A stretch of DNA of 29,764 nucleotides from a virus. The stretch spans positions 1-29,764 of IMG/VR virus record IMGVR_UViG_3300045996_002150, one strand, 5' to 3'. The position numbers and the translations under genes were made by a program. Positions 828-14,541 of the stretch are shown here, piece by piece (within the stretch, counting starts at the first letter, position 1; each line of letters begins with the position of its first letter). Under the pieces are notes generated by a model. It was not told the DNA's origin. It made no database searches and worked only from the letters and a program-made list of their open reading frames with translations.

Positions 828-1115
828 GTGTACGAGGTCTTCCGCCGCAATTTCGAGTCGCCCGGCCTGCGCGGTGACGGGCTCCCCCACCCCGAGCGTG
901 AGGTGGAGGGCACGTTCCTGAAGAACGTGCTCAACCTCACCGAGCTCGACAGCACCTTCCGGGTGCTCACCACGGCCGCCGCCATCGCCGGCCGGGAGGA
1001 GGAGTTCATCGCCCGCGACCGCGACACCGGCAGCTGGCTCGAGCCGGACGACGTGATCGAGCTGCTGCAGCAGGGCCCCGCGGAGTCGGACGACCCCGAG
1101 GAGCTGGCGTTCTGA
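828..1115 (+). CDS. hypothetical protein, 95 aa
   Basis: The GTG start has a well-spaced GGAG at 818-821 (six-base gap). The product is acidic and helical (YEVFRRNFESPGLRGDGLPHPEREVEG at the start, ending in a run of Glu/Asp), with no membrane segment. No family is recognised. It is the first gene of the long train of small genes, sits directly behind the inverted repeat that covers its ribosome binding site, and its stop overlaps the next start (TGATG). Confidence 0.7.
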   Translation: MYEVFRRNFESPGLRGDGLPHPEREVEGTFLKNVLNLTELDSTFRVLTTAAAIAGREEEFIARDRDTGSWLEPDDVIELLQQGPAESDDPEELAF

Positions 1116-1594
1116 TGCCCACCTACCACCCGTTCGGCTACCACGCCAGCTGGGGCGGCGCCGACGTCGCCATGCGGGACGGCGACGAGATGGTGGTGAC
1201 CACCGAGTTCGATCCGTTCTCTATCACGTCCGTTCGCCTACTTCCCAAGGAGAGACCGAGCATGACCGAGCAGGAGATCGCACTGCAGCAGGCCCGCCGC
1301 CAGGGCTACGTCGACGCCCGGGTCGGCGGCCGGTACGTGACCCCGGCCGAGCACGCGGCCGCCCGCAAGGCGGCTCAGCTCCGCTTCCCCATCCACTTCC
1401 TCAAGGCCCGCGAGATCGCGATGCGGGTGATCGGCGAGACAAAGGTTCGCTACTACCGCGTCAACCTGGAAACCGACCGGGTCGAGGTGAGGTTCGACGG
1501 CGAGACGGAGTGGAGCAACACCTGGTGGACCAGCGCCCACCTTCGCGAGCTGGGTGACCTGGGCCAGCATCCGAAGTTCGAGGTGCGCAAGTGA
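1115..1594 (+). CDS. hypothetical protein, 159 aa, with a possible internal start
   Basis: This is read as one 159-residue protein from the ATG that shares a base with the previous stop. Residues 50-159 (from MTEQEIALQQARRQGYVDARVGGRYVTP) look like a complete helical/beta protein on their own, and an ATG at 1262 is preceded by AAGGAG at 1247-1252 with nine bases of spacing. Two products, 159 and about 110 residues, are therefore possible. The C-terminal part carries a Trp-rich strand (EWSNTWWTSAHLREL). No family is recognised. Confidence 0.6.
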   Translation: MPTYHPFGYHASWGGADVAMRDGDEMVVTTEFDPFSITSVRLLPKERPSMTEQEIALQQARRQGYVDARVGGRYVTPAEHAAARKAAQLRFPIHFLKAREIAMRVIGETKVRYYRVNLETDRVEVRFDGETEWSNTWWTSAHLRELGDLGQHPKFEVRK

Positions 1595-1761
1595 GCCGCC
1601 TCCTCCTCTTCGGGGCCCTGCTGTCGGTGCTCGGCTCGGCCGCCGCGGGCGTACTTAGCGACTGGCGCAACGTCCGGCTGGGGCTCGGGCTGATCGGCGT
1701 CGCCGTCGCGCTCTGGACTCTCAGCTTCCTGGCCTTCCTGGCCGAGACGGCGGCCCGATGA
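1591..1761 (+). CDS. small two-helix membrane protein, 56 aa
   Basis: GTG overlaps the previous stop (GTGA) and the TGA overlaps the next ATG (ATGA), so the ORF fills exactly the space between its neighbours. The product starts VSRLLLFGALLSVLGSAAAG and has two hydrophobic helices (about residues 3-20 and 29-50) separated by a short polar loop (SDWRNVR). It is probably an inner-membrane hairpin. Its function is unknown; an accessory membrane or lysis-modulating role would be a guess. Confidence 0.6.
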   Translation: MSRLLLFGALLSVLGSAAAGVLSDWRNVRLGLGLIGVAVALWTLSFLAFLAETAAR

Positions 1762-2378
1762 GCGCCGGGATGCTGACCCACTCGGGCAGGCTCGTGACCC
1801 CCGGGTCCGACATCCCCTCGCTCTCGGACATGGCGCTGGGGCTGCTGCGGACGTCCCGGTTCTCGGGCCAGACCCGCCGCTGGTGGAGCGTGCTGCACCA
1901 CACGCTCTGGCTCCGCGACTACGTCCACTCCAAAGGCCGGGACCGCGAGCTCGAGCAGGGGATCCTGCTGCACGACGCCCACGAGGCCCTGACCGGCGAC
2001 ATCAGCACCCACTTCAAGACCGACGACATGCGCCGGCTGCAGGACCAGCTGGACCGGCGGATCCTCGCCCAGTGGTTCCCCGGCGGCTACAGCCGCTACC
2101 TCAGCTACCGGGAGCAGGTGAAGCACTGGGACCGGGTCGCGCTCCTGGCCGAGGCCGCGGTGGTGGGCCCGCCGGCGCTCGAGCACTGGGAGTCGCCGCC
2201 GGCGCGCGAGCTGTTCGCGCTCCACTTCGGCTCGCAGCCGGTCGCCGAGGCGGTGACGTACCTCGAGCGCTGGCTCGAGCTCAACGGCGACCTCCTCGAC
2301 CCCGCCATTCTCACCGACGCGGACGAGCCGTTCGGCCCCGCGCACCTCTTCATCACCCTCGTCACGGAGAACGTGTGA
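1758..2378 (+). CDS. HD-domain phosphohydrolase (YfbR-like), candidate nucleotide hydrolase
   Basis: The metal-binding residues of the HD superfamily are visible: H48 in SVLHHTL, the H72-D73 pair in LLHDAHEALTGD, and D125 in WDRVALLAEA. The segment RFSGQTRRWWSV before H48 matches the usual phage YfbR-like form. These enzymes remove phosphate from (deoxy)nucleotides; relatives include the 5'-nucleotidase YfbR and the dATP triphosphohydrolase DatZ of aminoadenine phages. The length of 206 residues is normal for the group. The sequence does not show the substrate. It is coupled to both neighbours by ATGA and GTGA overlaps. With the MazZ-like gene at 12776, a role in reshaping the dNTP pool is a reasonable inference. 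Confidence 0.85.
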   Translation: MSAGMLTHSGRLVTPGSDIPSLSDMALGLLRTSRFSGQTRRWWSVLHHTLWLRDYVHSKGRDRELEQGILLHDAHEALTGDISTHFKTDDMRRLQDQLDRRILAQWFPGGYSRYLSYREQVKHWDRVALLAEAAVVGPPALEHWESPPARELFALHFGSQPVAEAVTYLERWLELNGDLLDPAILTDADEPFGPAHLFITLVTENV

Positions 2379-2659
2379 TCACCCTCGAGCTGACGCTAAC
2401 GAACGAGACCGCCGAGCTGCTGCTGCAGGGCTTCAACGAGCAGCGCGAGCGCATCGCCCTCGAGATGGGCCGCGAGGACATGGACCCCGAGCGCGAGGAC
2501 CAGCTGACCAAGATGCTGGCGGCCGTGGCCCACGTCTACAACCCGCTCTACCAGCACCAGGAGCGGAACCGGGAGCTCGACCGCACCGACTTCCTGGACC
2601 GCCAGGAGGCCCGCGCCGAGCGCGCCCGCCGGGGCGAGAAGGTGAGGCTCCCGGCGTGA
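2375..2659 (+). CDS. hypothetical helical protein, 94 aa
   Basis: The GTG start overlaps the stop of the HD protein. The product begins VITLELTLTNETAELLLQGFNEQRERIALEMG and is almost all helix, with a highly charged C-terminus (RQEARAERARRGEKVRLP) that could form a coiled coil. No catalytic motif or membrane segment is seen and I recognise no family. A GTGA overlap couples it to the next gene. Confidence 0.65.
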   Translation: MITLELTLTNETAELLLQGFNEQRERIALEMGREDMDPEREDQLTKMLAAVAHVYNPLYQHQERNRELDRTDFLDRQEARAERARRGEKVRLPA

Positions 2660-2991
2660 GGGAGTGGGCCATGGTTCCCACCGGGACCGACGACAACTAC
2701 CGCCACCGGATCTCGGTCGACATGCGCGAGGTGGAGATCGAGAAGGACGGCGTGACGGGGAAGGAGCTGCAGCCGACGGTGAAGTTCCACGGGATCTACA
2801 GCGCCCGCCGGCAGGCGAAGAAGGCCACCGGGCTCACCGGCCGGCAGTGGGTGAAGCGCCGCAAGTGGATGCAGCGCGCCCAGCGCCATGTGGCGAAGCT
2901 CGGCGAGGCGCTCAAGGCGGTGAACCAGGCGCACGCGGAGACGCTCCTCAAGCTGGCGTCCGGCCCCCAGGAGACGGGGCCCGCCCGATAG
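2656..2991 (+). CDS. basic hypothetical protein, 111 aa
   Basis: The start is GTG inside the previous stop; an ATG six codons in is the alternative. The product has a short strand-rich beginning (NYRHRISVDMREVEIEKDG) and then a very basic helical stretch (SARRQAKKATGLTGRQWVKRRKWMQRAQRH) that could contact nucleic acid. There is no HTH signature I can confirm. It is the last gene before the 60-base gap in front of the HTH gene. Confidence 0.65.
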   Translation: MREWAMVPTGTDDNYRHRISVDMREVEIEKDGVTGKELQPTVKFHGIYSARRQAKKATGLTGRQWVKRRKWMQRAQRHVAKLGEALKAVNQAHAETLLKLASGPQETGPAR

Positions 2992-2999
2992 GGCGCTAC

Positions 3000-3016
3000 C
3001 GGGCACGAGCCCGTTT
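3000..3016 (+). terminator. short hairpin with three T, weak terminator candidate
   Basis: CGGGC (3000-3004), ACGA loop, GCCCG (3009-3013) then TTT, located just after the stop at 2991 and before the ribosome binding site of the HTH gene. The five-bp stem and three T make at best a weak or attenuating terminator. Confidence 0.25.
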
Positions 3017-3051
3017 ACACATCAACGAAGGAGGACAGCGGAGAAAACATC

Positions 3052-3267
3052 ATGCAGAGCACGACGCTTCAGATCGAGGTGCCGTACTTCCCCTCGGTCT
3101 CACGGCGGATGAAGGAGCAGCTGATCAATCCCTCGGCCCTGGCACAGGCGGCCGGCGTGGCGTTCAGCCAGCTCTCGCGGTGGCTGCACAAGGACATCGA
3201 CCCGAAGCTCTCGAGCATCGTCAAGATCGAGCATGCGTTCGAGACCATCGCGGAGCTCCGCAAGTGA
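3052..3267 (+). CDS. short helix-turn-helix DNA-binding protein, 71 aa
   Basis: Residues about 26-62 (NPSALAQAAGVAFSQLSRWL followed by HKDIDPKLSSIVKIEHAFE) have the layout of an XRE/Cro-type helix-turn-helix: a first helix, AQAAGV turn, SQLSRWL recognition helix, and a following helix. At 71 residues it is a DNA-binding domain and little more, as in Cro-type phage regulators. Unlike most genes here it does not overlap its upstream neighbour; GGAG at 3040-3043 with eight bases of spacing sets the ATG. It is a natural candidate to bind the palindromes over the promoters at 4910 and 13261, but that link is inference. Confidence 0.75.
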   Translation: MQSTTLQIEVPYFPSVSRRMKEQLINPSALAQAAGVAFSQLSRWLHKDIDPKLSSIVKIEHAFETIAELRK

Positions 3268-3452
3268 CCGAGCCCGCGCGCCGCTACGGGTTCGCTCTGG
3301 TGCGGAAGGAGTCGAACGAGATCGAGGAGTTCTTCTGGACGCGCGCCGAAGCCCGCGGCTCGCTTTCCTACAACCCCGAGGCGGACGGGCTCCGCATCGA
3401 ACGCGCGCGGGTGACTTCCTGTGTGAAGCCCCGGCAGGAGAAACGAACGTGA
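3264..3452 (+). CDS. small hypothetical protein, 62 aa
   Basis: GTG start inside the stop of the HTH gene (GTGA), and its own stop lies inside the next GTG. The product reads as a small alpha/beta protein (RRYGFALVRKESNEIEEFFW, then ARGSLSYNPEADGLRIERARV) with a basic tail. No family is recognised and there is no membrane segment. Its support comes from the fit between neighbours. Confidence 0.6.
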   Translation: MTEPARRYGFALVRKESNEIEEFFWTRAEARGSLSYNPEADGLRIERARVTSCVKPRQEKRT

Positions 3453-3592
3453 CGATGATTTTCAGCATCGAGTGGGACTGGCGCACCTGGTCCCTCGGCG
3501 CCGGCCTGGCGCAGCACTTCGGCGACAACTGGGGTGGGCTCGTGCAGCTCATGGCGGGGCCGCTCTACCTCGCCGTGGAATGGGGCGGCTGA
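3449..3592 (+). CDS. small hypothetical protein, 47 aa
   Basis: GTGA overlap at the start and TGATG overlap at the end. The product starts VTMIFSIEWDWRTWSLGAGL, is rich in Trp and Gly, and has a mildly hydrophobic C-terminal half (GLVQLMAGPLYLAVEW). That half might associate with membrane but is too weak to call a transmembrane helix. A relative in other phages would be needed to say more. Confidence 0.5.
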   Translation: MTMIFSIEWDWRTWSLGAGLAQHFGDNWGGLVQLMAGPLYLAVEWGG

Positions 3593-3681
3593 TGCGCTGG
3601 CTCCTCGACCAGACCCTCGGCCGGGCGGTGGTGTGGGCCGGGCACCGGGTCATGTCCCGCTACGCGGCGAGCCGGCCATGA
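3592..3681 (+). CDS. very small basic protein, 29 aa
   Basis: ATG shares one base with the previous stop and the TGA lies in the next ATG (ATGA at 3678-3681). The 29-residue product starts MRWLLDQTLGRAVVWAGHRV and is short, basic and amphipathic. It fits precisely between its neighbours, which is the only evidence for expression; it may act as a translational coupler rather than as a working protein. Confidence 0.45.
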   Translation: MRWLLDQTLGRAVVWAGHRVMSRYAASRP

Positions 3682-3812
3682 CCGAGTACCTCATGTTCTG
3701 GCTGGCGCAGGCCATCGTCGGCGTCGGCGTCTCGGTCGTGCTTCTCGGCGTGCTCGTGGGCGCCGCCGCGCTGACGGTGGAGGTCAAGGCCTGGCGCCGG
3801 AGGCGGTCGTGA
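3678..3812 (+). CDS. single-span membrane protein, 44 aa
   Basis: The product has a short N-terminus (MTEYLMFW), one strong hydrophobic helix of about 25 residues with Gly/Val/Leu/Ala, and a basic tail KAWRRRRS that predicts a cytoplasmic C-terminus. Both ends overlap neighbouring genes by four bases. Its function is unknown. Small membrane proteins of this type often modulate host envelope processes. Confidence 0.55.
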   Translation: MTEYLMFWLAQAIVGVGVSVVLLGVLVGAAALTVEVKAWRRRRS

Positions 3813-4006
3813 GCGGCATGGATCCGCAGGCCGCCGCCGAGCAGCGCGACCTGTTCGCGCAGTTTCTCGTCGGCTACGAGGACGTGGCCCGGCGCCACAG
3901 CGTGATCGTGATGCACGATCCCACCGGCGAGCCCTACCTGCTGCAGGTGAAGCCGGCGCGCGTCGACATCGAGATCGCCCGCCTCAAGCTGATGGAGGAG
4001 CTGTGA
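3809..4006 (+). CDS. small hypothetical protein, 65 aa
   Basis: GTG start in a GTGA overlap. Mostly helical, acidic N-terminus (MDPQAAAEQRDLFAQFLVGYED), then a short beta section (SVIVMHDPTGEPYLLQVKPARV). No family recognised. The stop overlaps the next GTG, so it is a link in the coupled train. Confidence 0.6.
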   Translation: MSGMDPQAAAEQRDLFAQFLVGYEDVARRHSVIVMHDPTGEPYLLQVKPARVDIEIARLKLMEEL

Positions 4007-4191
4007 AGACCGTCTTCCTCAAGAACGTGGTAGAAAAGTGGCTGGCCGAACGCGAGCGAGTCGAGGACTGCACCTGCCAGGACGAAGACGTGTTTGGTGG
4101 CTGTTGGTTCCACCTGCCGCGCGAGACCCAAATCGCCGAGCGGGTGGACAGCTTTCGCAAGGCGCTCGCTGAGGCGGGAGACGTACTGTGA
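4003..4191 (+). CDS. small Cys-containing hypothetical protein, 62 aa
   Basis: The sequence has a helical start (KTVFLKNVVEKWLAERERVE) and then DCTCQDEDVFGGCWFHLP. The three Cys and one His (C-x-C, then C-x-x-H) could bind a metal ion, though the spacing is unusual. GTGA overlaps join it to both neighbours. I do not recognise the family. Confidence 0.6.
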   Translation: MKTVFLKNVVEKWLAERERVEDCTCQDEDVFGGCWFHLPRETQIAERVDSFRKALAEAGDVL

Positions 4192-4754
4192 GGCCACAGT
4201 CCGCCAAGGCCAAGGGCCGCCGGCTGCAGCAGTACGCCCGCGACCGGTTCCTGGCCGTGTTCAAGATGCTGGGCGCGGACGACATCAGCTCGCGCTCGAT
4301 GGGGGCCGCCGGCGAGGATCTGCTGCTCTCGCCGCGGGCGCGGCGCTTCATCCCCTTCAGCGTCGAGTGCAAGAACCAGGAGGCGCTGAACATCTGGAAG
4401 GCGCTCGAGCAGGCCGACCGGGGCGACCGCGACCCGCTGCTGGTGTTCAAGCGCAATCACAGCGACACCTACTGCGCGCTGCCGTTCGACGCGCTGCTCG
4501 ACCTTCTCGAGGAGAGAGCTCATGGGATCCACGCGCAGGAAACCGCCGGCCGCACGGGAGTCGCAGGCGGTGCGGACGGTCACGTTCTCGTTCACCGCGA
4601 CCGAGGAGTCGCTGGAGAAGCTGGCGACGTTCCTCAGGTTCCTGCCCGACCTGAAGGCAATGCCGGCGACTGGTGCGCGGGCCGAGCTCCTGGCCTTCGA
4701 GCCGGAGCCCCCTCGCCCGCCCGTCTCCCCGGAGACAGCACGGGTGCTGCGTGA
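4188..4754 (+). CDS. PDDEXK-like phage endonuclease / resolvase-like protein
   Basis: Residues 1-108 match a phage nuclease type I recognise by pattern: a basic start (AKAKGRRLQQYARDRFL), SSRSMGAAGEDLLLSPRAR, then the PDDEXK-like core SVECKNQEALNIWKALEQA and LLVFKRN. E63 and K65 in VECK would be active-site residues, with E44-D45 upstream. Such proteins resemble Hjc/VRR-type nucleases that act on branched DNA. The family-like part ends near LLDLLEERA. The last 80 residues, which overlap the gene at 4522, are Gly/Ala/Arg-rich and read like an out-of-frame translation. The true protein may be shorter in relatives, and this copy may have lost its stop. Confidence 0.7.
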   Translation: MRPQSAKAKGRRLQQYARDRFLAVFKMLGADDISSRSMGAAGEDLLLSPRARRFIPFSVECKNQEALNIWKALEQADRGDRDPLLVFKRNHSDTYCALPFDALLDLLEERAHGIHAQETAGRTGVAGGADGHVLVHRDRGVAGEAGDVPQVPARPEGNAGDWCAGRAPGLRAGAPSPARLPGDSTGAA

Positions 4755-4911
4755 GGAGTGCGACCCGCTGATCGATCTGCTGGCGCTCCGCAGCGGGCTC
4801 GAGTTCGCCCGCCGCACGCTGACCGACCACGGCGCTGCCCGGCTGCGCGACGTGCCCGACGAGCGAATGCCCGAGCTCCGCGACTACCTGAAGAAGGCGC
4901 TCGGAAAGTGA
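4522..4911 (+). CDS. hypothetical protein, 129 aa
   Basis: The ATG is preceded by GAGGAGAG with five to six bases of spacing, a strong site inside the nuclease ORF. The first 233 bases overlap that ORF in another frame. The product has an alpha/beta N-terminus (RTVTFSFTATEESLEKLATFL), a Pro-rich linker (EPEPPRPPVSP) and a helical C-terminal domain. No family is recognised. The codon pattern and good site make this frame the likelier coding one in the overlap. The stop at 4909-4911 lies within the promoter palindrome. Confidence 0.7.
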   Translation: MGSTRRKPPAARESQAVRTVTFSFTATEESLEKLATFLRFLPDLKAMPATGARAELLAFEPEPPRPPVSPETARVLREECDPLIDLLALRSGLEFARRTLTDHGAARLRDVPDERMPELRDYLKKALGK

Positions 4912-4941
4912 CTTGACTTTCAAGTCGATAATCGCTAAGAT
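4910..4941 (+). promoter_or_regulatory. sigma70-like promoter with a palindromic operator, copy 1
   Basis: TTGACT at 4913-4918, a 17-base spacer, and TAAGAT at 4936-4941 make a good sigma70-type promoter. The -35 lies inside a perfect 7-bp inverted repeat, GACTTGA CTT TCAAGTC (4910-4926). A near copy lies at 13261-13292. The next gene starts at 4983 with its AGGAG at 4970-4974, so the promoter reads into the replication block. The palindrome on the -35 suggests repression. Confidence 0.75.
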
Positions 4942-4982
4942 TTTCGTCCCCGACAACGCAGGCCCCGAGAGGAGATACGCCC

Positions 4983-5387
4983 TTGAAGGTAACCGTTGAG
5001 TTCAACACCCCGCAGGAGATCGCGGACTTCTTCAGCCAGTACCGCCACACCCCGATCCAGACCACCATCGAGCCCCTGCCCCCGGTCGACGTCCCGGTGG
5101 TGGAGCGTGCCGTGGGCCTCACCCCGGAGTGGCCGACCGACACCCAGCCCGACGACATCGGCGTCGTCCTCGTGGAGGCCGTCGCGACCGACCAGGCCAC
5201 CGCCACCATCACCCGGAAGGTGCCGACGGTCGACGAGCTCAAGGTCGCCATCGACGGCTACCTCAAGAACCCCGAGGGCGGCAGCGTCAAGTTCCTCGCC
5301 CTGCTCCGCAACACCTTCAAGGTGGAGCGGGTGAAGGATCTCAGCGAGGAGCAGCGTGCCGAGCTCTTCCGGGAGATCGCGGCGTGA
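4983..5387 (+). CDS. hypothetical protein, 134 aa, first gene of the replication block
   Basis: The start is TTG at 4983, set by AGGAG at 4970-4974 with eight bases of spacing; it is the first gene after the promoter at 4910. The product is acidic, with an N-terminal segment (KVTVEFNTPQEIADFFSQYR), a Pro/Val/Thr-rich middle, and a helical C-terminal domain (VDELKVAIDGYLKN ... FLALLRNTFKVERVKDLSEEQRAEL). The C-terminus resembles small helical accessory proteins of phage recombination modules, but I cannot name a family. Confidence 0.7.
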   Translation: MKVTVEFNTPQEIADFFSQYRHTPIQTTIEPLPPVDVPVVERAVGLTPEWPTDTQPDDIGVVLVEAVATDQATATITRKVPTVDELKVAIDGYLKNPEGGSVKFLALLRNTFKVERVKDLSEEQRAELFREIAA

Positions 5388-5617
5388 AGATCCTCAACCG
5401 CGAGCAGCTGGACCGTCCGGTCTACGTGATGCCGGGCGACACCGTCGAGGTGACCCAGTCGAATCCGCTCACCGGCGAGGTGGTGCTCACCCAGCACCGC
5501 ATCGAGAAGTGCGACCGGTTCGACGTGGCCTTCATCGCCGAGATCGAGCCCGGCGACCTGGGGCTCGAGGCCGGCTACGTGGGTGGCATCGGCCGGCGGC
5601 CGAAGGGGCACGTATGA
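5384..5617 (+). CDS. small beta-rich hypothetical protein, 77 aa
   Basis: GTGA overlap at the start and ATGA at the end. The sequence (VYVMPGDTVEVTQSNPLTGEVVLTQHRI) suggests a small beta-barrel or SH3-like fold, followed by an acidic loop. No motif gives a function. It sits in the operon that carries the replication and recombination proteins. Confidence 0.6.
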   Translation: MKILNREQLDRPVYVMPGDTVEVTQSNPLTGEVVLTQHRIEKCDRFDVAFIAEIEPGDLGLEAGYVGGIGRRPKGHV

Positions 5618-5886
5618 GCACCTACCTCTGCGTCGGCGGGCCGTGGAACGGGCAGATCCAGGCGCTTCAGCCGGGCGCCCAGTCGGTGATCGTTGCACTG
5701 CACAACCCTGCGCTCCAGATGATCCCGGCGATCTACGACAGCCCCGAGGCGCCGCCGTACTCGGTGACCGTTCACCAGGCGGTCTACAAGCTGTCGAAGT
5801 ACAAGGTCGGCCCGGGCGTCACGGTCGAGGTGCTGGCCTACTTCGGCAAGGACGGCAGTGACCGTCCGAAGGGCTTCTACCTGTGA
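5614..5886 (+). CDS. hypothetical protein, 90 aa
   Basis: The sequence begins MSTYLCVGGPWNGQIQAL, a pattern seen in many small phage proteins of unknown role (C-x-GGPWNGQ). It continues with beta strands and a Tyr-rich segment (YSVTVHQAVYKLSKYKVGPG). It overlaps the preceding gene by ATGA and the DUF2800 gene by GTGA. I cannot assign a function. Confidence 0.65.
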   Translation: MSTYLCVGGPWNGQIQALQPGAQSVIVALHNPALQMIPAIYDSPEAPPYSVTVHQAVYKLSKYKVGPGVTVEVLAYFGKDGSDRPKGFYL

Positions 5887-7103
5887 GCAAGCCGAAGACT
5901 GAGCGCCAGCACGCCGAGCTCGGCGCCTCGAACAGCGAGCGGTGGATCAACTGCTCCGGCTCGGTGCGGATGGAGCGCGGCATCCCCAACACCGGGAGCG
6001 ACTATGCCCTCGAGGGCACCGTGGCTCACGATGTCGCGGAGCGGGCGCTGACCATGAAGCTGGACCCGGCCGTGTGGCTGGACACCGAGATCGACGGCGT
6101 GCTGGTCGACGAGGAGATGGTCGAGGGCGTCCGGCTCTACGTGGAGACCGTGCGCGCCGAGCTGGCCGAGGGCGACGAGCTCCACGTCGAGGTGCCGATC
6201 TCGCTCGCCGCGCTCAACCCGCCGAAGCCGATGTACGGCACCAGCGACGCGCGGATCTTCAAGCGCGTTCGCCGGCGGCTGATCGTCATCGACCTGAAGT
6301 ACGGCCAGGGCTACGCGGTCGAGGTGGTCGACAACGACCAGCTCTACTACTACGCGCTCGGCGCCCTGCTGGGGCTCGAGGAGGAGTACGGCTCCGGCCT
6401 GGTGGACGAGATCGAGCTGATCATCGTCCAGCCCCGGGCGGCGCACCCCGACGGCGCGGTGCGGCGGGTGGTGATCCCCTACCTCGAGATCATGGACTTC
6501 GCGCTCCGCATCCTGGCGGCGGCCGAGCGGACGCAGGATCCGAACGCGCCGCTCACGCCCGGCCGCTGGTGCCGGTTCTGCCGCGCGAAGGCGGTGTGCC
6601 CCGCGCTCAAGGACCAGGCGCAGGCGCTGGCGCGGGTGGACTTCGCCGAGCCCGCCGCCGAGCTCGCGCTGCCGACCCCGCCCGAGCACCTCACGCTCGA
6701 GCAGCTGGTGAAGATCGCCAACTACGGGGACGTGCTGGTGAGCTACGTCGGCGCCGTGCGGCGCCACATCCAGGGGATGCTCGAGCGGGGCCAGGAGGTG
6801 CCCGGCTTCAAGCTGGTGGCCAAGCGGGCGACCCGGAAGTGGGCCAGCGAGCGCCAGGTCGAGGAGTGGGCGCGCGAGGCCGGCGTCGAGCCGACCACGC
6901 TCTACAAGGAGCCCGAGCTCCGCAGCGTGGCCCAGCTCGAGAAGGCGCTCGGCAAGGGCACCATCCCCGCCGAGCTGGTGGTGAAGCTGTCGAGCGGCAA
7001 CACGGTGGCGCCGGTCGCCGACAAGCGGCCGGAGATTCCCGCGGGACCGCAGCAGGACTTCGCTGCACTCCCGCCGGGGGAGGATGCCGCAGCTACCGTG
7101 TAG
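5883..7103 (+). CDS. DUF2800-family nuclease (Cas4/RecB-like, Fe-S cluster)
   Basis: The active-site set of the PD-(D/E)XK Cas4/AddB-like group is visible: H49 in EGTVAHDVAE, D122 in GTSDARIF, D137 and K139 in VIDLKYG, and Q153 with Y156 in QLYYYAL. Four cysteines, C24, C230, C233 and C239 (WCRFCRAKAVC), have the spacing that holds a 4Fe-4S cluster. The 406-residue length is normal for DUF2800. It likely resects DNA ends in phage recombination and acts with the DUF2815 protein downstream, a pairing known from many phages. The GTG start overlaps the previous stop; the 3' end overlaps the endonuclease VII gene by 20 bases. Confidence 0.9.
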   Translation: MSKPKTERQHAELGASNSERWINCSGSVRMERGIPNTGSDYALEGTVAHDVAERALTMKLDPAVWLDTEIDGVLVDEEMVEGVRLYVETVRAELAEGDELHVEVPISLAALNPPKPMYGTSDARIFKRVRRRLIVIDLKYGQGYAVEVVDNDQLYYYALGALLGLEEEYGSGLVDEIELIIVQPRAAHPDGAVRRVVIPYLEIMDFALRILAAAERTQDPNAPLTPGRWCRFCRAKAVCPALKDQAQALARVDFAEPAAELALPTPPEHLTLEQLVKIANYGDVLVSYVGAVRRHIQGMLERGQEVPGFKLVAKRATRKWASERQVEEWAREAGVEPTTLYKEPELRSVAQLEKALGKGTIPAELVVKLSSGNTVAPVADKRPEIPAGPQQDFAALPPGEDAAATV

Positions 7104-7482
7104 CAAACACAACGAGCGTCGGCGCGACGGGCGCTGCGCGCAGTGCCACCGCGAGGCGGTGCGGCGCCACAAGCTGAAGTCCCGGTTCGGGCTCACGCCC
7201 GCCGAGTACGACGCGCGGATCGCCTTTCAGCACGGACGCTGTGCGATCTGCCACGACCCGATGACGAACCCGCACCTGGACCACGACCACGCGACCGGCC
7301 AGCTGCGCGAGGTGCTCTGCCTCAACTGCAACACCGGCATCGGCAAGCTGAAGGACAACCCGGCGCTGCTGCGCGCAGCCGCCCGCTACATCGAGAAGCA
7401 CCGCAACCAACCTGCCCCGGGAACCGCCGCAGCCCGGCCGGCAGACACACGCAAGCGGCAGAGCAGACAACCAGGAGCCTAG
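7084..7482 (+). CDS. recombination endonuclease VII (HNH, T4 gp49-like)
   Basis: The treble-clef zinc site is C53/C56 (CAIC) with C79/C82 (CLNC), around the LDHDHATG core in which D66 and H67 correspond to the catalytic Asp-His, with N83 after the last Cys. This is the endonuclease VII family, which cuts Holliday junctions and other branched DNA before packaging. A separate N-terminal C6-x2-H9 and C18-x2-C21 could bind a second zinc. The C-terminus after residue 110 is a disordered, basic tail. The 132-residue length is usual for phage versions. The start overlaps the nuclease gene by 20 bases. Confidence 0.9.
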   Translation: MPQLPCSKHNERRRDGRCAQCHREAVRRHKLKSRFGLTPAEYDARIAFQHGRCAICHDPMTNPHLDHDHATGQLREVLCLNCNTGIGKLKDNPALLRAAARYIEKHRNQPAPGTAAARPADTRKRQSRQPGA

Positions 7483-7484
7483 CA

Positions 7485-8075
7485 TTGGCACAGCTGACCG
7501 CAGATGAAGAGAGGGCGCTCAAGGTCACGACCGCGGAGTTCGTCACCTCCTACCCGTTCGTCTTCAAGGGACGGCCGAACGACGACGACAAGATCAAGTT
7601 CTCGGTCGCGATGGTCTTCACGAAGGAGACCCTCGAGAGCGAGAAGGGCAAGGCCTTCATCGCCGCCGCCGACCGGGCGATCAAGATGGCGATCAAGAAG
7701 AAGTGGGGCGACGCGCCGCCGAAGTCCCTGGCGCTTCCGTTCCACACCAGCGCGGACGAGATCGAGGACAAGGGTTACAAGTCCCTCGGCGCCGCCATGT
7801 ACATGAACGCCTCGGCCGACCAGGCCCCGGGCGTCGTGGACGCGCAGCTGAAGAACGTCACCGACGAGACCGCCGTGTACCCCGGCGTGATCGCCCGCGC
7901 GACCCTGAAGGCCTTCGGCTACGAGAAGAAGGGCAAGCGGGGCGTCTCGTTCGGTCTGAACAACATTCAGATCCTGCGCGACGGCAAGCGCCTCGACGGC
8001 CGCAAGGCCGCGGACGAGGACTTCGACGCCCTCGAGCCGGCCGACATCAGCCACGCGCTGTCGGATCTGAAGTAA
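7485..8075 (+). CDS. DUF2815-family single-stranded DNA-binding protein
   Basis: The start is TTG at 7485 with AGGAG at 7473-7477 and seven bases of spacing. The product (196 aa) shows the DUF2815 pattern: VTTAEFVTSYPFVFKGR, KIKFSVAMVFTKE, AIKMAIKKKWGD, ALPFHTSADEIEDKGY and MYMNASADQAPGVVD, ending in an acidic tail. The family forms an OB-like fold and is thought to coat single-stranded phage DNA. It regularly travels with DUF2800 nucleases and family A polymerases, as here. Confidence 0.88.
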   Translation: MAQLTADEERALKVTTAEFVTSYPFVFKGRPNDDDKIKFSVAMVFTKETLESEKGKAFIAAADRAIKMAIKKKWGDAPPKSLALPFHTSADEIEDKGYKSLGAAMYMNASADQAPGVVDAQLKNVTDETAVYPGVIARATLKAFGYEKKGKRGVSFGLNNIQILRDGKRLDGRKAADEDFDALEPADISHALSDLK

Positions 8076-8194
8076 ACAACAGGAAGACGGGTGTAGGCGC
8101 TTTGGTGCGATGGGCGGCACTGCTTAATGAGGTAGCCCTGCAGCCTCACCTACATCCGGCTCTTTCCGCTCACCTCACCGATAGAAAGGCTGTC

Positions 8195-10234
8195 GTGGAC
8201 GCCCCCGCTGTATCGCTCGACTTCGAGACCCGCGCCCGGGTGGATCTCCGTAAGAGCGGAGTCTACCCCTACGCCCGCGACGAGGACACCGACATCTGGT
8301 GCTTCGGCGTCCTCTTCCCCGACGAGGAGGAGGTTCGGCTCTGGTATCCGTGGCACGTCGACAGCGGCCAGAGCGCGGCCGACCGCGAGTACATCCGCGA
8401 GAAGCTTGACGCCCATGTGCTGCAGGGCGGGATCATCCGCGCCTGGAACGCGCAGTTCGAGCGCATCATCTGGCGCGAGATCCTGGGCCCGCGCTACGGC
8501 TTCGCCGTGCCCGCGCTCGAGCAGTACCACTGCACCATGGCCGAGGCCGCGGCGATGGGCCTGCCCAAGTCGCTGGACCGCGCGGCCGAGGTGGTGGGGC
8601 TGAAGGAGGGGAAGGACGTCCAGGGCTATCAGCTGATGATGCGGATGACGAAGCCCCGGAGCGAGAAGGGCGGGGACGTCGTCTGGTGGAACCTCCGCGA
8701 CCGGGTCACCCGGCTCGGCGCCTACTGCACCCAGGACGTGAAGGTCGAGGTGCAGATGGCCGCCAAGACCCGCCGGCTGAACGCCGTCGAGCGCCAGGTG
8801 TGGCTCGAGGACCAGCGCGTCAACGACCGCGGCGTGCTGATCGACGTCGACCTGGTGCGGGCGGCCAAGGTGATCACCGAGGAGAGCATCGAGCGCGCCT
8901 CGGCCGCCCTCTCCGAGCTCACCGACGGCGCGGTGACGAAGCCCAGCCAGGTCGCGAAGATCAAGCAGTACCTCTCCGACACCGGGCTGCAGGTGGAGTC
9001 GCTCAACAAGCCGGCCATCGCCGAGCTCCTCTCGAGCGATCTCTCCGAGCAGCACCGGGCCATCATCGAGACCCGGCGCGACTCGGCCAAGTCCAGCGTG
9101 AAGAAGCTGGACGCCATGCTCGCCTGCGTCGGCGACGACAACCGCGCCCGCGGGCTGCTGCAGTACCACTCGGCCGGGCCCGGGCGGTGGGGTGGCCGGC
9201 TGATCCAGCCGCAAAACTTCGTCCGCTCGTTCATCAAGAACGTCGAGCGCTACATCCCCGACGTGCTCGCCGAGCGCTACGACTACCTGGACATGTTCGA
9301 GTCGCCGCTCGACATCGTCGCCTGCCTCATGCGCGGGATGCTGATCCCGACGCCCGGGCACCGCTTCGTCGTCGCCGACTACGGCCAGGTCGAGGCCCGG
9401 CTGGTCAACTGGTTCGCCGACCAGCAGGACGTGCTCGACAACTTCCGCGCCAAGGACGCCGGCGACAAGTCGCGCGACCCGTACAAGATGATGGCCGTCA
9501 GCATGGGGCGCGGCGCCACCGTGGCCGACATCGACGACGCGGGGCGCCAGGCCGGCAAGGCGGCCGAGCTCGGCTGCGGGTTCCAGATGGGCTGGCGGAA
9601 GTTCGTGAGCGCCGCCTGGGATGTCTACCAGGTGCGTGTAAACGACGAGCAGGCGAAGGTCGCGGTCGCCGCCTACCGGGCGACGCACCCCAAGGTCAAG
9701 GCGTTCTGGTACGAGATGAACCGGAAGGCGCTGGCCGCCGTGCGGAAGCCCGGTGAGGTGCAGTACGTCGAGCCCTACGGCCGCGTGCGCTTCGTTAAGG
9801 CCGGCGGCTACCTGTGGATGGTGCTGCCGAGCGGGCGCACCGTGGCCTACGCCCGGCCCCGCATCGTGCCGGTCGAGAAGGAGTGGGAGGACGCCGAGAC
9901 CGGGAAGAAGACCCGCTCGGTGCGGGCCACCATCGAGGCCGAGGGCGAGGACTCGCAGACCCGGCAGTGGACCAGCTACTACCTCTACGGCGGGATCTTC
10001 ACCAACCACGCGGTGCAGGGCTCGGCGCGCGATCTCCTGGCCGCGGCCATGCTGCGCGCACCCGCGAAGGGCTACACCACCGTGCTGACGGTCCACGACG
10101 AGCTCGTTGCCGAGGTGCCGCTCGGCGTCGGCTCGGTGCAGGAGTACGAACACATCGTTGCCACTCTGCCCGCCTGGGCCGAGGGCTGCCCGATCATCGC
10201 AGAAGGCTGGGAAGGAGCGCGATACCGCAAATGA
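8195..10234 (+). CDS. family A DNA polymerase with 3'-5' exonuclease domain
   Basis: The phage replicative polymerase. The DxE of a DEDD exonuclease is at the start (LDFET, D9 and E11). Motif A is DYGQVEARLV with D395, motif B is K455-AAELGCGFQMG, and motif C is VHDEL with D635. At the place of E. coli Phe762 this enzyme has Leu (L459), and Phe463 replaces Tyr766, as in other DUF2800-linked phage polymerases. I chose GTG at 8195 because AAGG at 8186-8189 precedes it and because the exonuclease begins right there; the open frame continues far upstream but runs through the DUF2815 gene. Length 679 residues. Confidence 0.92.
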   Translation: MDAPAVSLDFETRARVDLRKSGVYPYARDEDTDIWCFGVLFPDEEEVRLWYPWHVDSGQSAADREYIREKLDAHVLQGGIIRAWNAQFERIIWREILGPRYGFAVPALEQYHCTMAEAAAMGLPKSLDRAAEVVGLKEGKDVQGYQLMMRMTKPRSEKGGDVVWWNLRDRVTRLGAYCTQDVKVEVQMAAKTRRLNAVERQVWLEDQRVNDRGVLIDVDLVRAAKVITEESIERASAALSELTDGAVTKPSQVAKIKQYLSDTGLQVESLNKPAIAELLSSDLSEQHRAIIETRRDSAKSSVKKLDAMLACVGDDNRARGLLQYHSAGPGRWGGRLIQPQNFVRSFIKNVERYIPDVLAERYDYLDMFESPLDIVACLMRGMLIPTPGHRFVVADYGQVEARLVNWFADQQDVLDNFRAKDAGDKSRDPYKMMAVSMGRGATVADIDDAGRQAGKAAELGCGFQMGWRKFVSAAWDVYQVRVNDEQAKVAVAAYRATHPKVKAFWYEMNRKALAAVRKPGEVQYVEPYGRVRFVKAGGYLWMVLPSGRTVAYARPRIVPVEKEWEDAETGKKTRSVRATIEAEGEDSQTRQWTSYYLYGGIFTNHAVQGSARDLLAAAMLRAPAKGYTTVLTVHDELVAEVPLGVGSVQEYEHIVATLPAWAEGCPIIAEGWEGARYRK

Positions 10235-10371
10235 GCACATCAGTGGAGGAGTACGAGGACGGGTGGTACTTCACGGACGAGGGGGAGCAGCTGCACGGTC
10301 CGTTCTCGTCGGAGGCGGAAGCCCTCGACGAGGAGAGCGCCTACTTCACCATCTTCGTGGAGGGGGAGTGA
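10231..10371 (+). CDS. small acidic protein, 46 aa
   Basis: ATGA overlap with the polymerase stop and GTGA overlap with the helicase start. The product begins MSTSVEEYEDGWYFTDEGEQ and is strongly acidic and Trp/Tyr/Phe-containing, looking like a small beta fold or a DNA mimic. No family is recognised. Its place between polymerase and helicase makes a role in replication possible, but nothing in the sequence shows one. Confidence 0.6.
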   Translation: MSTSVEEYEDGWYFTDEGEQLHGPFSSEAEALDEESAYFTIFVEGE

Positions 10372-12779
10372 CCGCTCCCGCACTGCGGCTCTACGACCGC
10401 GGCTACACCGAGCTGGTGTCGGTGTCCCCGCCGGGCGCCACGCTCTCGCCGGGCTCCAAGCTGTCGGCGAACCAGCTGGGCAAGGCCCCCGCGCGCCGGC
10501 TCGCCAACGGCACCTGGGTGGGCTACCGGTTCACCGACCACGTCGCCAACCGCGACGACGCGGAGCGGTGGGTGCAGTGGGGCGCGAACATCGGGCTCCT
10601 GGCCGAGAATTTCCCCGCGCTCGACATCGACTCGATGGACGAGTGGATGGTGCGGCAGGTGATGGAGCTGGCGCTCGCCACCTTCGGCCCGACGCCCTGG
10701 CGGGTGGGGAAGGCGCCGAAGACGCTGCTGCCCTACCGGCTCGAGGGCGCGCCGTTCGGGCGGATGGCGATCATCGTCGTGCGCGACGGCCAGTCCAACC
10801 TCATCGAGTTCCTCGGCAAGGGCCGCCAGTACCTGGTGTACGGCACGCACCCGAGCGGGTCCGCCTACCGCTGGGGCGGCGACTACGCGCTGTGGGACAT
10901 CGATCCCGAGATGCTGCCGACGCTCTCGCTCGAGCAGGCCCGCGCCTTCCTCGACACCCTGACCGATCTGTTCGAGGGCTCCGGCTGCGAGGTGCAGCGC
11001 GTGGGCGACGGGCGGGTCTTGAAGGGCGGCGACCTGGCGCAGGAGGCGCTCGTCGCGCCCTCGCTCGAGGTGCTCGAGCAGGCCGTGGCGCTCATTCCCA
11101 ACACCGACGAGTTCTTCCCCGACCGCCGCGACTACATGCGGATGGGGCACGCCATCCGCGCCAGCTGGCCGGAGAGCGAGGAGGACGCGTTCGCCGTGTT
11201 CGCCGAGTGGGCCGGCCGGCATCCGAAGGACGGTCGCGTCGCCGGCAACCCCGACACTCCGCGCGAGGACTGGCGCCGGTTCCGGCCGCCCTTCCAGCTG
11301 GGGTGGAGCTGGATCGCCGAGACCGCGCGCCGGTTCGGCTTCGTCGACGCCGCGCTCGACTTCGAGAAGGTGGAGCAGCAGCTCGAGGACGCGCGGCCCG
11401 ACGAGCTCGAGCTCAAGAGCTTCAAGACCGAGCAGTTCCCCGACTCCGACGAGTGGGTGGGCGACCTGGTGCGCCACGACAGCGGCCACCTGCTGCGGTT
11501 CGTGCCGAAGATGGGCGTCTGGTTCTGCTGGGACGGCTCGCGCTGGCAGAAGGATGCGGTGAACCTGGCCGAGGCGCGGATCCGGGACACCACCCGCAAG
11601 ATGGGCGCGCGGCTGGCGAAGTACGGCGGCAGCGAGCAGGAGGCGGCCAACGCGGCGAAGCGGGCGATGATGCTCACCAGCGCCAACAAGATGAAAAGCG
11701 TGCTCCGGTTCCTGCAGAGCTCGCGCGAGCTCACGGCCACGCCGGAGGCGTTCGACACCAACCCCTGGATCCTCAACACCCCGGGCGGCACGGTCGATCT
11801 CAAGACCGGGCTCCTGGGTCCGAGCGATCCCGAGCTGATGTGCTCCAAGCGCACGGCGGTCGTGCCGGATCCGAGCCGGGGGCTCACCCTGTGGGACCGG
11901 TTCCTCGACGAGGCGACGGCCGGCAACAAGGATCTGCAGCGCTACCTGCAGAAGTGGGCCGGCTACGCGCTGACCGGACTCACCATCGAGCAGAAGTTTC
12001 TCTTCATATGGGGCCCGGGCGGGCGCGGCAAGGGCACGTTCCTGCGCGCCATCGGCGGCATCCTGGCCGACTACCACACCCAGGCCTCGATGGACACCTT
12101 CGCCGCCGCCAACGGCGAGAAGCACCCGACCGATCTGGCGTCGATGCTCGGCGCCCGCATGGTCACCGCCAACGAGACCCAGGACGGCAAGCGCTGGGAC
12201 GAGGCGCGGGTGAAGGAGCTCACCGGCGGCGACCGGGTGAGCGCGCGGTTCATGCGGCAGGACTTCTTCGAGTACAAGCCGCAGTTCAAGCTGTTCTTCA
12301 TCGGCAACTTCCGGCCGGAGATTCGGAACGTCGACGCGGCCATGCGCCGGCGGCTGTACCTGGTGCCGTTCGTCACCGAACCCAAGCTGCGCGATCTGCA
12401 GCTCGACGACAAGCTGCAGGCCGAGGAGTGGCCGGCGATCCTCAGCTGGATGATCGAGGGCTGTCTGCTGTGGCAGCGCGAGGGCCTGGTGAGCGTGCCC
12501 GGCGTCGTGCGCGAGGCGACCGACGAGTACTTCGGCGAGCAGGACTCGTTCTCGCGGTGGATCCAGGACTGCACCGTCGAGAGCGACGAGAACACCCGCA
12601 TCACCTCGGCCTTCCAGAGCTGGCGCGAGTGGGCCGGGCGGAAGGGCGAGTGGGTGGGCACCGAGCGGCGCTTCACCAACGGCGTGCTCAACGCGGGACT
12701 CAAGCGGGGCCGGGACGAGGGCGTGCCCGTGTTCCTCAATCTCTCACTGAAGCAACAGACACCGGAGGGGCTAGGATGA
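10368..12779 (+). CDS. prim-pol / D5-type SF3 helicase (primase-helicase)
   Basis: The N-terminal bifunctional primase-polymerase domain has its catalytic pair at D85 and D87 (FPALDIDS). It is followed by a linker and the D5-N region (about 400-540). The C-terminal SF3 helicase has Walker A at G549-T557 (GPGGRGKGT), a Walker B-like NETQDG, and the LFFIGNFRPEIR sensor with MRRRLYLVPF. Such 800-residue fusions prime and unwind phage replication forks. The GTG start overlaps the stop of the small acidic gene. It ends in an ATGA overlap with the MazZ-like gene. Confidence 0.92.
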   Translation: MTAPALRLYDRGYTELVSVSPPGATLSPGSKLSANQLGKAPARRLANGTWVGYRFTDHVANRDDAERWVQWGANIGLLAENFPALDIDSMDEWMVRQVMELALATFGPTPWRVGKAPKTLLPYRLEGAPFGRMAIIVVRDGQSNLIEFLGKGRQYLVYGTHPSGSAYRWGGDYALWDIDPEMLPTLSLEQARAFLDTLTDLFEGSGCEVQRVGDGRVLKGGDLAQEALVAPSLEVLEQAVALIPNTDEFFPDRRDYMRMGHAIRASWPESEEDAFAVFAEWAGRHPKDGRVAGNPDTPREDWRRFRPPFQLGWSWIAETARRFGFVDAALDFEKVEQQLEDARPDELELKSFKTEQFPDSDEWVGDLVRHDSGHLLRFVPKMGVWFCWDGSRWQKDAVNLAEARIRDTTRKMGARLAKYGGSEQEAANAAKRAMMLTSANKMKSVLRFLQSSRELTATPEAFDTNPWILNTPGGTVDLKTGLLGPSDPELMCSKRTAVVPDPSRGLTLWDRFLDEATAGNKDLQRYLQKWAGYALTGLTIEQKFLFIWGPGGRGKGTFLRAIGGILADYHTQASMDTFAAANGEKHPTDLASMLGARMVTANETQDGKRWDEARVKELTGGDRVSARFMRQDFFEYKPQFKLFFIGNFRPEIRNVDAAMRRRLYLVPFVTEPKLRDLQLDDKLQAEEWPAILSWMIEGCLLWQREGLVSVPGVVREATDEYFGEQDSFSRWIQDCTVESDENTRITSAFQSWREWAGRKGEWVGTERRFTNGVLNAGLKRGRDEGVPVFLNLSLKQQTPEGLG

Positions 12780-13258
12780 GCACGCACGGCACCGCAGACA
12801 AGTCTCACATCCCCCAACCGCCGGCGGGTTCCCCGCCCCGGCACCTCGTGCTCCCGACCGGCAAGCAGGAGCGCAAGGACACGCCCGTCGTGTCGGGCTT
12901 CCTCGACTACTTCCCCGGCGCGGCCGCGGAGGTGGCGCGCGTGTCCAAGGCCGGCAACGACCAGCACAACCCCGGCCAGGCGATGCACTGGGCGCGGGGC
13001 AAGTCGAGCGATCACGCCGACTGCATCGTCCGCCACCTCATGGAGCGCGGCACGTTCGACAGCGATGGCCTGCGTCACTCGGCGAAGGTGGCCTGGCGGG
13101 CGATGGCGCTGCTGCAGGAGGAGCTCGAGGCCGAGGGCGCGGCGCCCGGCCGGGCCAGCCGCTTCCCCACGCTGCCGGAGCCTATCCGCATAACGCCGGA
13201 CCGGGAGCGCCGGAATCCGGCCTACTACCGGCACCCCGACGAGGATCCGAGCCAGTAA
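12776..13258 (+). CDS. MazZ-like dATP/dGTP diphosphohydrolase (DUF5664, N-terminal type)
   Basis: The segment from FPGAAAEVARVSKAGNDQHN (46-65) through HWARGKSSDHADCIVRHL (71-88) to GLRHSAKVAWRAMALLQEEL (98-117) matches the Pfam family named dATP/dGTP diphosphohydrolase, N-terminal. This is an all-helical MazG-like fold whose Glu/Asp/His residues would bind metal. MazZ of aminoadenine phages makes dGMP for PurZ. Many DUF5664 proteins occur without PurZ, so the specific role is open. It is the last gene of the operon starting at 4983. The first 35 residues are disordered and Pro-rich. Confidence 0.8.
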   Translation: MSTHGTADKSHIPQPPAGSPPRHLVLPTGKQERKDTPVVSGFLDYFPGAAAEVARVSKAGNDQHNPGQAMHWARGKSSDHADCIVRHLMERGTFDSDGLRHSAKVAWRAMALLQEELEAEGAAPGRASRFPTLPEPIRITPDRERRNPAYYRHPDEDPSQ

Positions 13259-13260
13259 GC

Positions 13261-13292
13261 GACTTGACTTCCGAGTCGATTTTCGATAGGAT
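13261..13292 (+). promoter_or_regulatory. sigma70-like promoter with a palindromic operator, copy 2
   Basis: TTGACT at 13264-13269, a 17-base spacer and TAGGAT at 13287-13292. It starts two bases after the TAA of the MazZ-like gene. The first 17 bases, GACTTGACTTCCGAGTC, differ from copy 1 (GACTTGACTTTCAAGTC) at three positions, and the arms CGACTTG and CGAGTCG still pair with one mismatch. It reads into the tiny gene at 13336. Confidence 0.75.
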
Positions 13293-13335
13293 TACGGTGT
13301 CGCCAACATCCACCCCTTCCACGGAGGATCCGCAG

Positions 13336-13404
13336 ATGCTTGACAAGAGCGGCACCAACTTCGGCTCACCCTGGCTGCAGAAGCCGCCCCGCAAGGGCAA
13401 GTGA
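13336..13404 (+). CDS. tiny 22-aa leader-like protein
   Basis: ATG has a textbook GGAGG at 13323-13327 with eight bases of spacing and is the first start after promoter copy 2. The product has 22 residues and begins MLDKSGTNFGSPWLQKPPRK. It is basic and Pro-rich, and its TGA lies inside the next GTG (GTGA at 13401-13404). It could be a working micropeptide or a coupler that sets translation of the next gene. It is too short for a family call, but the start is among the best in the window. Confidence 0.6.
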   Translation: MLDKSGTNFGSPWLQKPPRKGK

Positions 13405-13703
13405 GCAGCATCACCGTTCGGCGCTGCGCGACCGCCGCCTCCTACCTGGGGCGGCGGAAGCCACGCTGCAGCGGCCACAAGCCCGGCACCGGCCCCGGCT
13501 GCTTCACCTGCTGGGCCATCTACCTCAAGGCGCACGGGCACACCCCGAGCGTCGCACCGCTCACGAAAGTGAGGACCACCCGTGGCAACCCGCGCGTCCA
13601 GCGACCATCCGGTCAAACGAGTCGTGCAGACGAAGTACGAGGGCGAGCTCGTCCTCGAGGTGACGGCAACACACGCAACCCTGCGCCCCATCCGTACCCG
13701 TAA
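13401..13703 (+). CDS. small zinc-finger-like protein; C-terminal part uncertain
   Basis: GTG in a GTGA overlap with the 22-aa gene. Residues 1-60 are convincing: SITVRRCATAASYLG, then C23-x2-H26 and C34-x2-C37 (CSGH and CFTC), a possible zinc site. After about residue 60 the sequence becomes RTTRGNPRVQRPSGQTSRAD and overlaps the next gene in another frame for 122 bases, with no recognisable order. The stop may have been lost, or the tail may be real; I cannot decide. Confidence 0.5.
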   Translation: MSSITVRRCATAASYLGRRKPRCSGHKPGTGPGCFTCWAIYLKAHGHTPSVAPLTKVRTTRGNPRVQRPSGQTSRADEVRGRARPRGDGNTRNPAPHPYP

Positions 13704-13776
13704 AGGCGGGCCCGCGGAGGTCGTCGTGACCTGGGGGCATATCTACCACCGAGCTCTCGCCGCAAGGAGTCAATGA
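13582..13776 (+). CDS. small hypothetical phage protein, 64 aa
   Basis: The GTG start follows a GAGGA at about 13570-13575. The product has a basic start and a compact beta fold (KYEGELVLEVTATHATLRPIRT), then PAEVVVTWGHIYHRALAARS. The pattern of a short beta sheet, a TWG-x-IY motif and a helical end is one I have seen in small phage proteins of unknown role. It is well ordered, unlike the overlapping frame, and is the preferred coding frame in 13582-13703. Confidence 0.65.
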   Translation: MATRASSDHPVKRVVQTKYEGELVLEVTATHATLRPIRTRKGGPAEVVVTWGHIYHRALAARSQ

Positions 13777-13779
13777 CCC

Positions 13780-14541
13780 ATGGAGGCACTGCGCCAGCGT
13801 TTGCTAGACACCGCCCACGAGGCCGAGCGTCAGTCCCGGCGCGCCGGCACCCAGCAACAGTCCCGCGTCCAGCTCAAGGCCCTGGCCGAGCGACTCCGGG
13901 GCGACGCCAAGGGGCTCGAGCGGATGGTGGACAAATCACCTCCGGCGCGCTCGTTCCGCTCCGAGCTCGTGGGCGCGACGCTGGTGCTGCTCATGACGCT
14001 CGCGGTGCAGCCCGCGAACGCGCAGTCCCTGCCGGCCTCGACCGGGTGCGTCGGCAACAACGTGGTGACGGTGTACCGTCCCGACATCGCCAAGGACTCG
14101 CTCGCACTCAGCGAGCTCGAGGCCCACGAGCGGGTCCACCGGGCGCAGATCCGTAACGGGATGGAGAAGAAGGGAATGAATTGCGCGGACGCGCTGCAGG
14201 CGCTGTCGTCCAACCCGCTGGTGAACCTCATGGCCGAGGTGCCGGCGTACCGGGCGCAGGCCGAGTGGAACAAGCGGGCCCGGGCTGATTTCGATGTGGT
14301 GCGGTTCTACGAGTTTGTGGCCCAGGCACTGTACGCGACCTACTCCCCCTCCGGCTGCCGCAAGGACTACGGCGGCGGGATTATCTGCCCCCAGGGGAAG
14401 ATGCCGGCGATACCGTACAGCTACATCTACCAGTACCTGACCACCGGCGTGCGGCCGCCCTGGCCCCCGCAGCTGGCCGACTATCCGCAGCCGAACGTGG
14501 TGCTCGCGGACAGCCTGCTCGCCACCGGGGGAATACTCTAG
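13780..14541 (+). CDS. exported or membrane-anchored HExxH zinc-protease-like protein
   Basis: The product has 253 residues. Residues 1-58 are a charged helix; residues 60-82 are a hydrophobic stretch ending ANAQS, which looks like a signal peptidase site. H116-E117-R-V-H120 (LEAHERVHRAQ) is the HExxH of zinc metallopeptidases, and E153 in MAEVPAYRAQ is a likely third ligand. Cys at 90 and 135 and two near the C-terminus would be oxidised outside the cytoplasm. AAGGAG at 13764-13769 sets the ATG at 13780; an internal ATG at 13924 (residue 49) would give a plain signal peptide. It could act on host envelope or peptidoglycan proteins. Activity is inferred only from the motif. Confidence 0.7.
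   Translation: MEALRQRLLDTAHEAERQSRRAGTQQQSRVQLKALAERLRGDAKGLERMVDKSPPARSFRSELVGATLVLLMTLAVQPANAQSLPASTGCVGNNVVTVYRPDIAKDSLALSELEAHERVHRAQIRNGMEKKGMNCADALQALSSNPLVNLMAEVPAYRAQAEWNKRARADFDVVRFYEFVAQALYATYSPSGCRKDYGGGIICPQGKMPAIPYSYIYQYLTTGVRPPWPPQLADYPQPNVVLADSLLATGGIL

Follow-up and report, generated by a model that had tools for sequence, protein, structure and literature searches.

Two promoters of this phage, S1 and S2, are probably copies of one host-sigma70 promoter with an operator embedded in its -35 box, where a small HTH protein encoded at position 3052 (HTH 3052) likely excludes polymerase and co-controls the two operons downstream. The window, meaning the whole stretch of DNA that was analyzed, is an IMG/VR virus record of 29,764 bases (29.8 kb), probably a fragment of the virus genome.

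Operon organization

The window contains three successive operons on the plus strand, followed by convergent late genes on the minus strand. The first operon in view (828–4911, plus strand) encodes an HD phosphatase, HTH 3052, a PDDEXK/RusA-like nuclease and small ORFs. The replication operon (4983–13258, plus strand) encodes a DUF2800/PD-DEXK exonuclease, an endonuclease VII-like protein, an Enc34-type ssDNA-binding protein, a family A DNA polymerase, a D5-type primase-helicase and a dATP/dGTP diphosphohydrolase. The last operon, a small one (13336–14541, plus strand) convergent with the late genes, consists of small ORFs and a gene for an exported-looking protein of 253 amino acids (13780–14541) with an HExxH motif (AHERVH). 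This protein had no match in Pfam, PHROGs or NCBIfam; the protein at the equivalent place in L009, a close syntenic relative (12728–13117), likewise has an HExxH motif (AHEMLH). A divergent cI/cro pair with integrase, as in lambdoid immunity regions, was not recognized within the 29.8 kb in view of what may be a fragment. A scan of genome contigs returned seven distant MAG contigs and nothing else.

S1 and S2 are located where the first and second operons, respectively, end, and each has a dyad that starts 0–2 nt from the preceding stop codon.

The promoter pair

The original prediction placed two near-identical promoters at 4910–4941 and 13261–13292, and both sequences are found exactly there, with 17-nt spacers. 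The S1 promoter (4913–4941, plus strand) has the -35 hexamer TTGACT (4913–4918) and the -10 hexamer TAAGAT (4936–4941), with the replication operon downstream. The S2 promoter (13264–13292, plus strand) has TTGACT (13264–13269) and TAGGAT (13287–13292), with the small last operon downstream. The predicted palindromes were also borne out. The S1 dyad, GACTTGACTTTCAAGTC (4910–4926), is perfect, with 7-bp arms around a 3-nt centre, while the S2 dyad, GACTTGACTTCCGAGTC (13261–13277; CGACTTGACTTCCGAGTCG at 13260–13278), has a single T.G mismatch between its arms, CGACTTG/CGAGTCG. Their inner cores, TTGACT-TTCA-AGTC (4913–4926) and TTGACT-TCCG-AGTC (13264–13277), are the candidate operators.

S1 and S2 are paralogous promoters of the sigma70 type, in which hexamers near the consensus stand 16–18 nt apart. 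Both match 9 of the 12 consensus bases with a spacer of 17, and no other site in the first 15,000 bases of the window matches at least 9. The segments 4906–4942 and 13257–13293 are 81% identical over 37 nt. Although 8.35 kb apart, the two promoters agree at 22 of 28 positions, and among 739 promoter pairs from the window and 146 related loci this pair alone reached at least 20 of 28.

The 17-base motif has no further match at up to three mismatches in the window besides its own reverse complement (0.01 expected from dinucleotide shuffles). A search for a third site with a degenerate 17-nt dyad, at three mismatches, gave a count at the level of chance (22 vs. 18.8). The pattern TTGACT-N17-TANNNT occurs three times in the window, at 742, 4913 and 13264, a number attained in 3 of 100 shuffles. 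When the bases outside the hexamers were shuffled, the P values for palindromicity were 0.014 for S1 and 0.15 for S2; the palindromes by themselves are weak evidence. Neither a search of IMG/VR with the exact 33-nt promoter pattern nor a near-DNA search of phage records produced a match.

A core dyad in related phages

Approximately 220 related loci were gathered with alignments or sequences of the polymerase, capsid and primase, with searches of whole records in a second pass; a polymerase search with a single sequence found no match, while alignment queries did retrieve loci. What the relatives conserve is the inner core TTGACT-N4-AGTC rather than the 7-bp arms, or more generally TTGACW-N4-WGTC, the left half of which is the -35 box. 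There are seven such core-dyad sites in total. Besides S1 and S2, two are in G001 (the record of locus L346), at 2641 and 6543 (TTGACT-TCGG-AGTC and TTGACT-CCAC-AGTC), and three are on the minus strand of G003 (the record of L008). Two of these are at 3203–3231 and 4135–4163 (TTGACA-TGGG-TGTC and TTGACA-TAGA-TGTC), and the third is beyond the replication genes, after the primase, at 29278–29291 (TTGACA-TTTA-TGTC). All seven sites agree in the core spacing and in its register to the -35 box. The pair formed by position 6 of the hexamer is T..A in the window phage and G001 and A..T in G003, and because this pair switches between phages, the dyad itself seems to be maintained, beyond the -35 box alone.

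Two further records, G005 and G007, have versions of the core with three pairs. G005, which encodes an HTH homolog, has no clear core-dyad promoter, with one full dyad lacking a -10 box and one three-pair site. In G007 (locus L469), a TTGACR-CNNN-NNTGAG-like element was seen three times ahead of the gene for the HTH homolog, at 13, 65 and 1181 of the locus; this element is perhaps a further operator variant.

The core is associated with the HTH family. At least three pairs of the core were present in 9 of 14 promoter-like sites from HTH-bearing phages (hand-listed, one with a CATATT -10 box) and in none of 23 from HTH-less relatives (Fisher p=1.6e-5), and 3 of the 5 HTH-bearing records, vs. 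0 of 46 others, had at least two full dyads (p=4.8e-4), both statistics being post hoc, with the pattern drawn partly from the phages in which it was then tested and the sites within one phage not independent. Neither the HTH gene nor the core dyad was found in L009, nor in L343 and others with the replication block.

Two other identifications of the dyad were tried and rejected. The FNR-type box was dropped for its different spacing. As a general feature of phage promoters, GACTTGACTT followed by AAGTC fared no better – among the matches listed, the dyad was completed in 1 of 76 in an unbiased control, and the relaxed GACTTGACTT/AAGTC pattern returned 68 contigs in 15 clusters, mostly from AT-rich, unrelated phages.

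The candidate regulator

HTH 3052 (3052–3267, plus strand), a mid-operon gene product, is a protein of 71 amino acids of the Cro/C1 type, which clears the HTH_3 (PF01381) cut-off by a narrow margin (24.1 bits vs. 23). The top matches of its structural model (pLDDT 81) were complexes of the P22 c2 DNA-binding domain, with a probability of 1.00 but a best E-value of 0.046 for these matches. The model also resembles SinR and the restriction-modification controllers C.AhdI, C.BclI and C.Esp1396I (all E-values at least 0.001), and sequence similarity to PDB entries by phmmer is low (E at least 0.48). No other HTH protein was recognized among the window genes scanned, a subset of the ORFs.

Homologs are encoded in G001, G003 and G005, with G007 added by profile (E 5.4e-8), and four homologs have in common (S/A)QxSR in the region of the recognition helix. 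A two-row alignment had retrieved from IMG/VR the copy in L011 alone before the four-row profile added G007, and tblastn of phage records found no match. Weak matches in G018, G019, G030, G034 and G041 (E near 1e-3) and G036 (1.5e-4) were classed as generic HTH domains; scored as homologs, they would weaken the association at the level of phages.

In G003 the HTH ORF starts at 3128, ca. 75 nt downstream of the core-dyad promoter at 3231–3203. Because the occurrence of its homologs is associated with that of the core dyad, and one homolog is directly preceded by a core-dyad promoter, HTH 3052 appears to be the best regulator candidate for S1 and S2.

A possible second promoter class

P742 (730–770, plus strand), the sole promoter seen ahead of the HTH operon, may belong to a second class. 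The original prediction listed it as a weak candidate beginning TTGACT, and it does so (TTGACT-17-TACTCT), but the GC-rich dyad around its -35 box (730–756) is not of the same class as those of S1 and S2. In place of the core dyad, P742 and three G001 promoters have the 13-mer GGGGGTTGACTCC (737–749 in the window), which is absent from all other loci checked. In G001, the closest HTH-bearing relative with both, the promoter that follows the replication operon and the one in front of the HTH gene are of the 742-like class rather than the core-dyad class. The promoter of the HTH gene is at 9907–9935, ca. 58 nt upstream of the start of the HTH ORF. There may thus be two promoter classes, one of them 742-like and common to the window phage and G001. 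With no core dyad in P742, autoregulation of the HTH operon is not visible in the window. The proposal that one regulator, perhaps HTH 3052, serves both operons gains from the co-occurrence of homologs and core dyads and from the G003 promoter, while the promoter nearest the HTH gene in the window and in G001 is of the other class.

Promoter layout in other relatives

Several phages that share the replication block have dyad promoters directly before and after it. In the temperate L069, GTTGACATTATGGCAAC precedes and GTTGACATTCCGGCAAC follows the replication genes, and an integrase gene follows the second. L049, also temperate, has the same arrangement, and its motif recurs in the cI-cro gap. 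Palindromes of 17 nt were common to intergenic gaps within the same phage in 8 of 84 cases, vs. 0 of 300 in a cross-phage control (score 20.5), and promoter-like sites in these gaps had AAC more often than expected at the position where it makes up a GTTG-N9-CAAC dyad (8 of 80). The GTTG-N9-CAAC dyads of L069, L035 and L049 are similar in design to those of the window but were not counted as the same operator, since their spacing differs. As the dyads of the temperate relatives differ from the sequence in the window, they support the layout and not the particular operator.

Other repeated sequences were seen in these loci. Stretches resembling the 3' half of a tRNA occur in L049 (12605–12935) and L069 (13450–13700), where they lie after the replication genes, before the integrase and adjoining the dyad promoter, and are probable attP sites. 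In L009, at 1001–1585 and upstream of the early genes, a perfect palindrome, TGTGTGTCGAAATGACACACA, is repeated in tandem and again farther downstream – candidate iterons, or else a different kind of operator in several copies. Palindromes of the form CGATACC...GGTATC are repeated in gaps of L006, L068 and L074, which are Rhodoferax phage P26218 and two relatives.

Proposed mechanism and alternatives

In the proposed mechanism, a small phage HTH protein of the Cro/C1 type, most likely HTH 3052 from the upstream operon, would bind as a dimer, centred near -28 to -30, at the candidate operator TTGACW-N4-WGTC, in which the -35 hexamer of S1 or S2 forms the left half-site. The bound dimer would exclude RNA polymerase from the -35 box, giving joint control of the replication operon and the small operon behind it. 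Dimer binding, repression, the identity of HTH 3052 as the acting protein in this phage and the timing are all predictions from sequence.

The dyads could be bound instead by a host protein or by a phage repressor from the missing part of the genome. This is unlikely. In its favor, the record is a 29.8-kb fragment, temperate relatives use a cI/cro pair, the gene for HTH 3052 lies within an operon and the dyad is absent from P742; against it, core dyads track the HTH family in relatives and precede the HTH gene in G003, and the window genes scanned, a subset of the ORFs, yielded no second HTH protein. Somewhat less probable still is that the dyads are RNA hairpins, either terminators or stabilizing stem-loops, that belong to the 3' end of the operon before them and simply happen to overlap the promoter that follows. 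Their position at the stop codons fits this, as do the energies of the RNA stems (-9.9 and -8.9 kcal/mol for S1 and S2, -25.1 for P742 with z -3.6, and -20.6 for the S2 counterpart in L008 with z -3.35), and the internal mismatches in S2 and in the GC-rich dyads (P742, L008, L346, L348) are mostly G.U-compatible. However, S1, P742 and the L008 counterpart of S2 have no U-tract and S2 has four U only, unlike an intrinsic terminator, in which a U-tract follows a GC-rich stem, and a terminator scan gave no excess of sites (6 vs. 5.1 in shuffles). A hairpin would not need the fixed register to the -35 box that the core keeps, nor would it be expected to track an HTH gene. The lack of U-tracts, the constant register and the association with the HTH family favor the reading as a DNA operator; a role at the 3' end alongside the operator role is possible.

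It is very improbable that the HTH protein activates transcription, or both activates and represses it as restriction-modification controller proteins do. The dyad is centred near -30 and overlies the -35 box, and a protein bound there usually blocks polymerase. The core spacing is also N4 and not N3, even though the HTH model resembles C.AhdI, C.BclI and C.Esp1396I and C.PvuII-like boxes have the form GACT-tat-AGTC (PMC4824078). There is equally little reason to regard the promoter as duplicated and its palindrome as incidental: the modest shuffle P values, and GACTTGACTT as a common -35 context in phages, would allow it, while the compensating T..A/A..T change across three phages and the absence of the core from all 23 sites of HTH-less relatives speak against it. 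Control of both operons by one phage regulator, through the dyad on the -35 box, appears to be the best-supported reading.

More broadly, uncultivated phages, most of them high in GC, may have a new regulator-operator family, a suggestion about as strong as its counter-case. In such a family an HTH protein of 70–84 amino acids and the operator TTGACW-N4-WGTC(AA), with the -35 box as left half-site, would join the promoters around the replication operon in one switch, and polymerase and regulator would use the same bases. The analysis predicts a regulator and its binding site purely from sequence, in phages that have no cultured members. A recurring layout is also indicated, in which control promoters flank the replication operon, the dyads vary by lineage, and an integrase lies behind the second promoter in temperate members.

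Comparison with known systems

The kind of system proposed, in which early promoters contain the operators of a small Cro/C1-type phage regulator, is already known. As in P22 c2 and lambda-type Cro/C1 systems, the putative regulator has a predicted small HTH_3 fold (its best PDB matches being P22 c2 complexes) and a short, near-palindromic candidate operator lies over early promoters. Unlike those systems, no tripartite operator, divergent cI-cro region or integrase is in view here, the operators belong to separate operons 8.35 kb apart, and the sequence similarity is low. TP901-1 CI also has several operators, one of them over the lytic promoter, but these are clustered within less than 1 kb around the divergent cI/mor genes (PMC7250872), whereas those described here are far apart.

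The gp71 repressor of mycobacteriophage L5 has an operator overlapping an early promoter and further intergenic stoperators (PMC5712189). The arrangement here is similar in having one (putative) repressor, an operator that overlaps an early promoter and further intergenic sites, but the L5 sites are asymmetric and number about 24, while the two described here are symmetric and both inside promoters, unlike stoperators of the L5 type. The palindromic operator motif of mycobacteriophage BPs gp33, which the genome has in complete as well as partial copies (PMC4557955), is a further parallel, though the BPs operator is CGACATATGTCG, its repressor is a different one, and its immunity is integration-dependent. 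The controller (C) proteins of restriction-modification systems and their C-boxes (PMC4824078, PMC5282649) have GACT/AGTC half-sites and a small HTH fold that the model of HTH 3052 resembles, but the C-box spacing is N3 (GACT-N3-AGTC) rather than the N4 of the core dyad, and no restriction-modification genes were recognized nearby.
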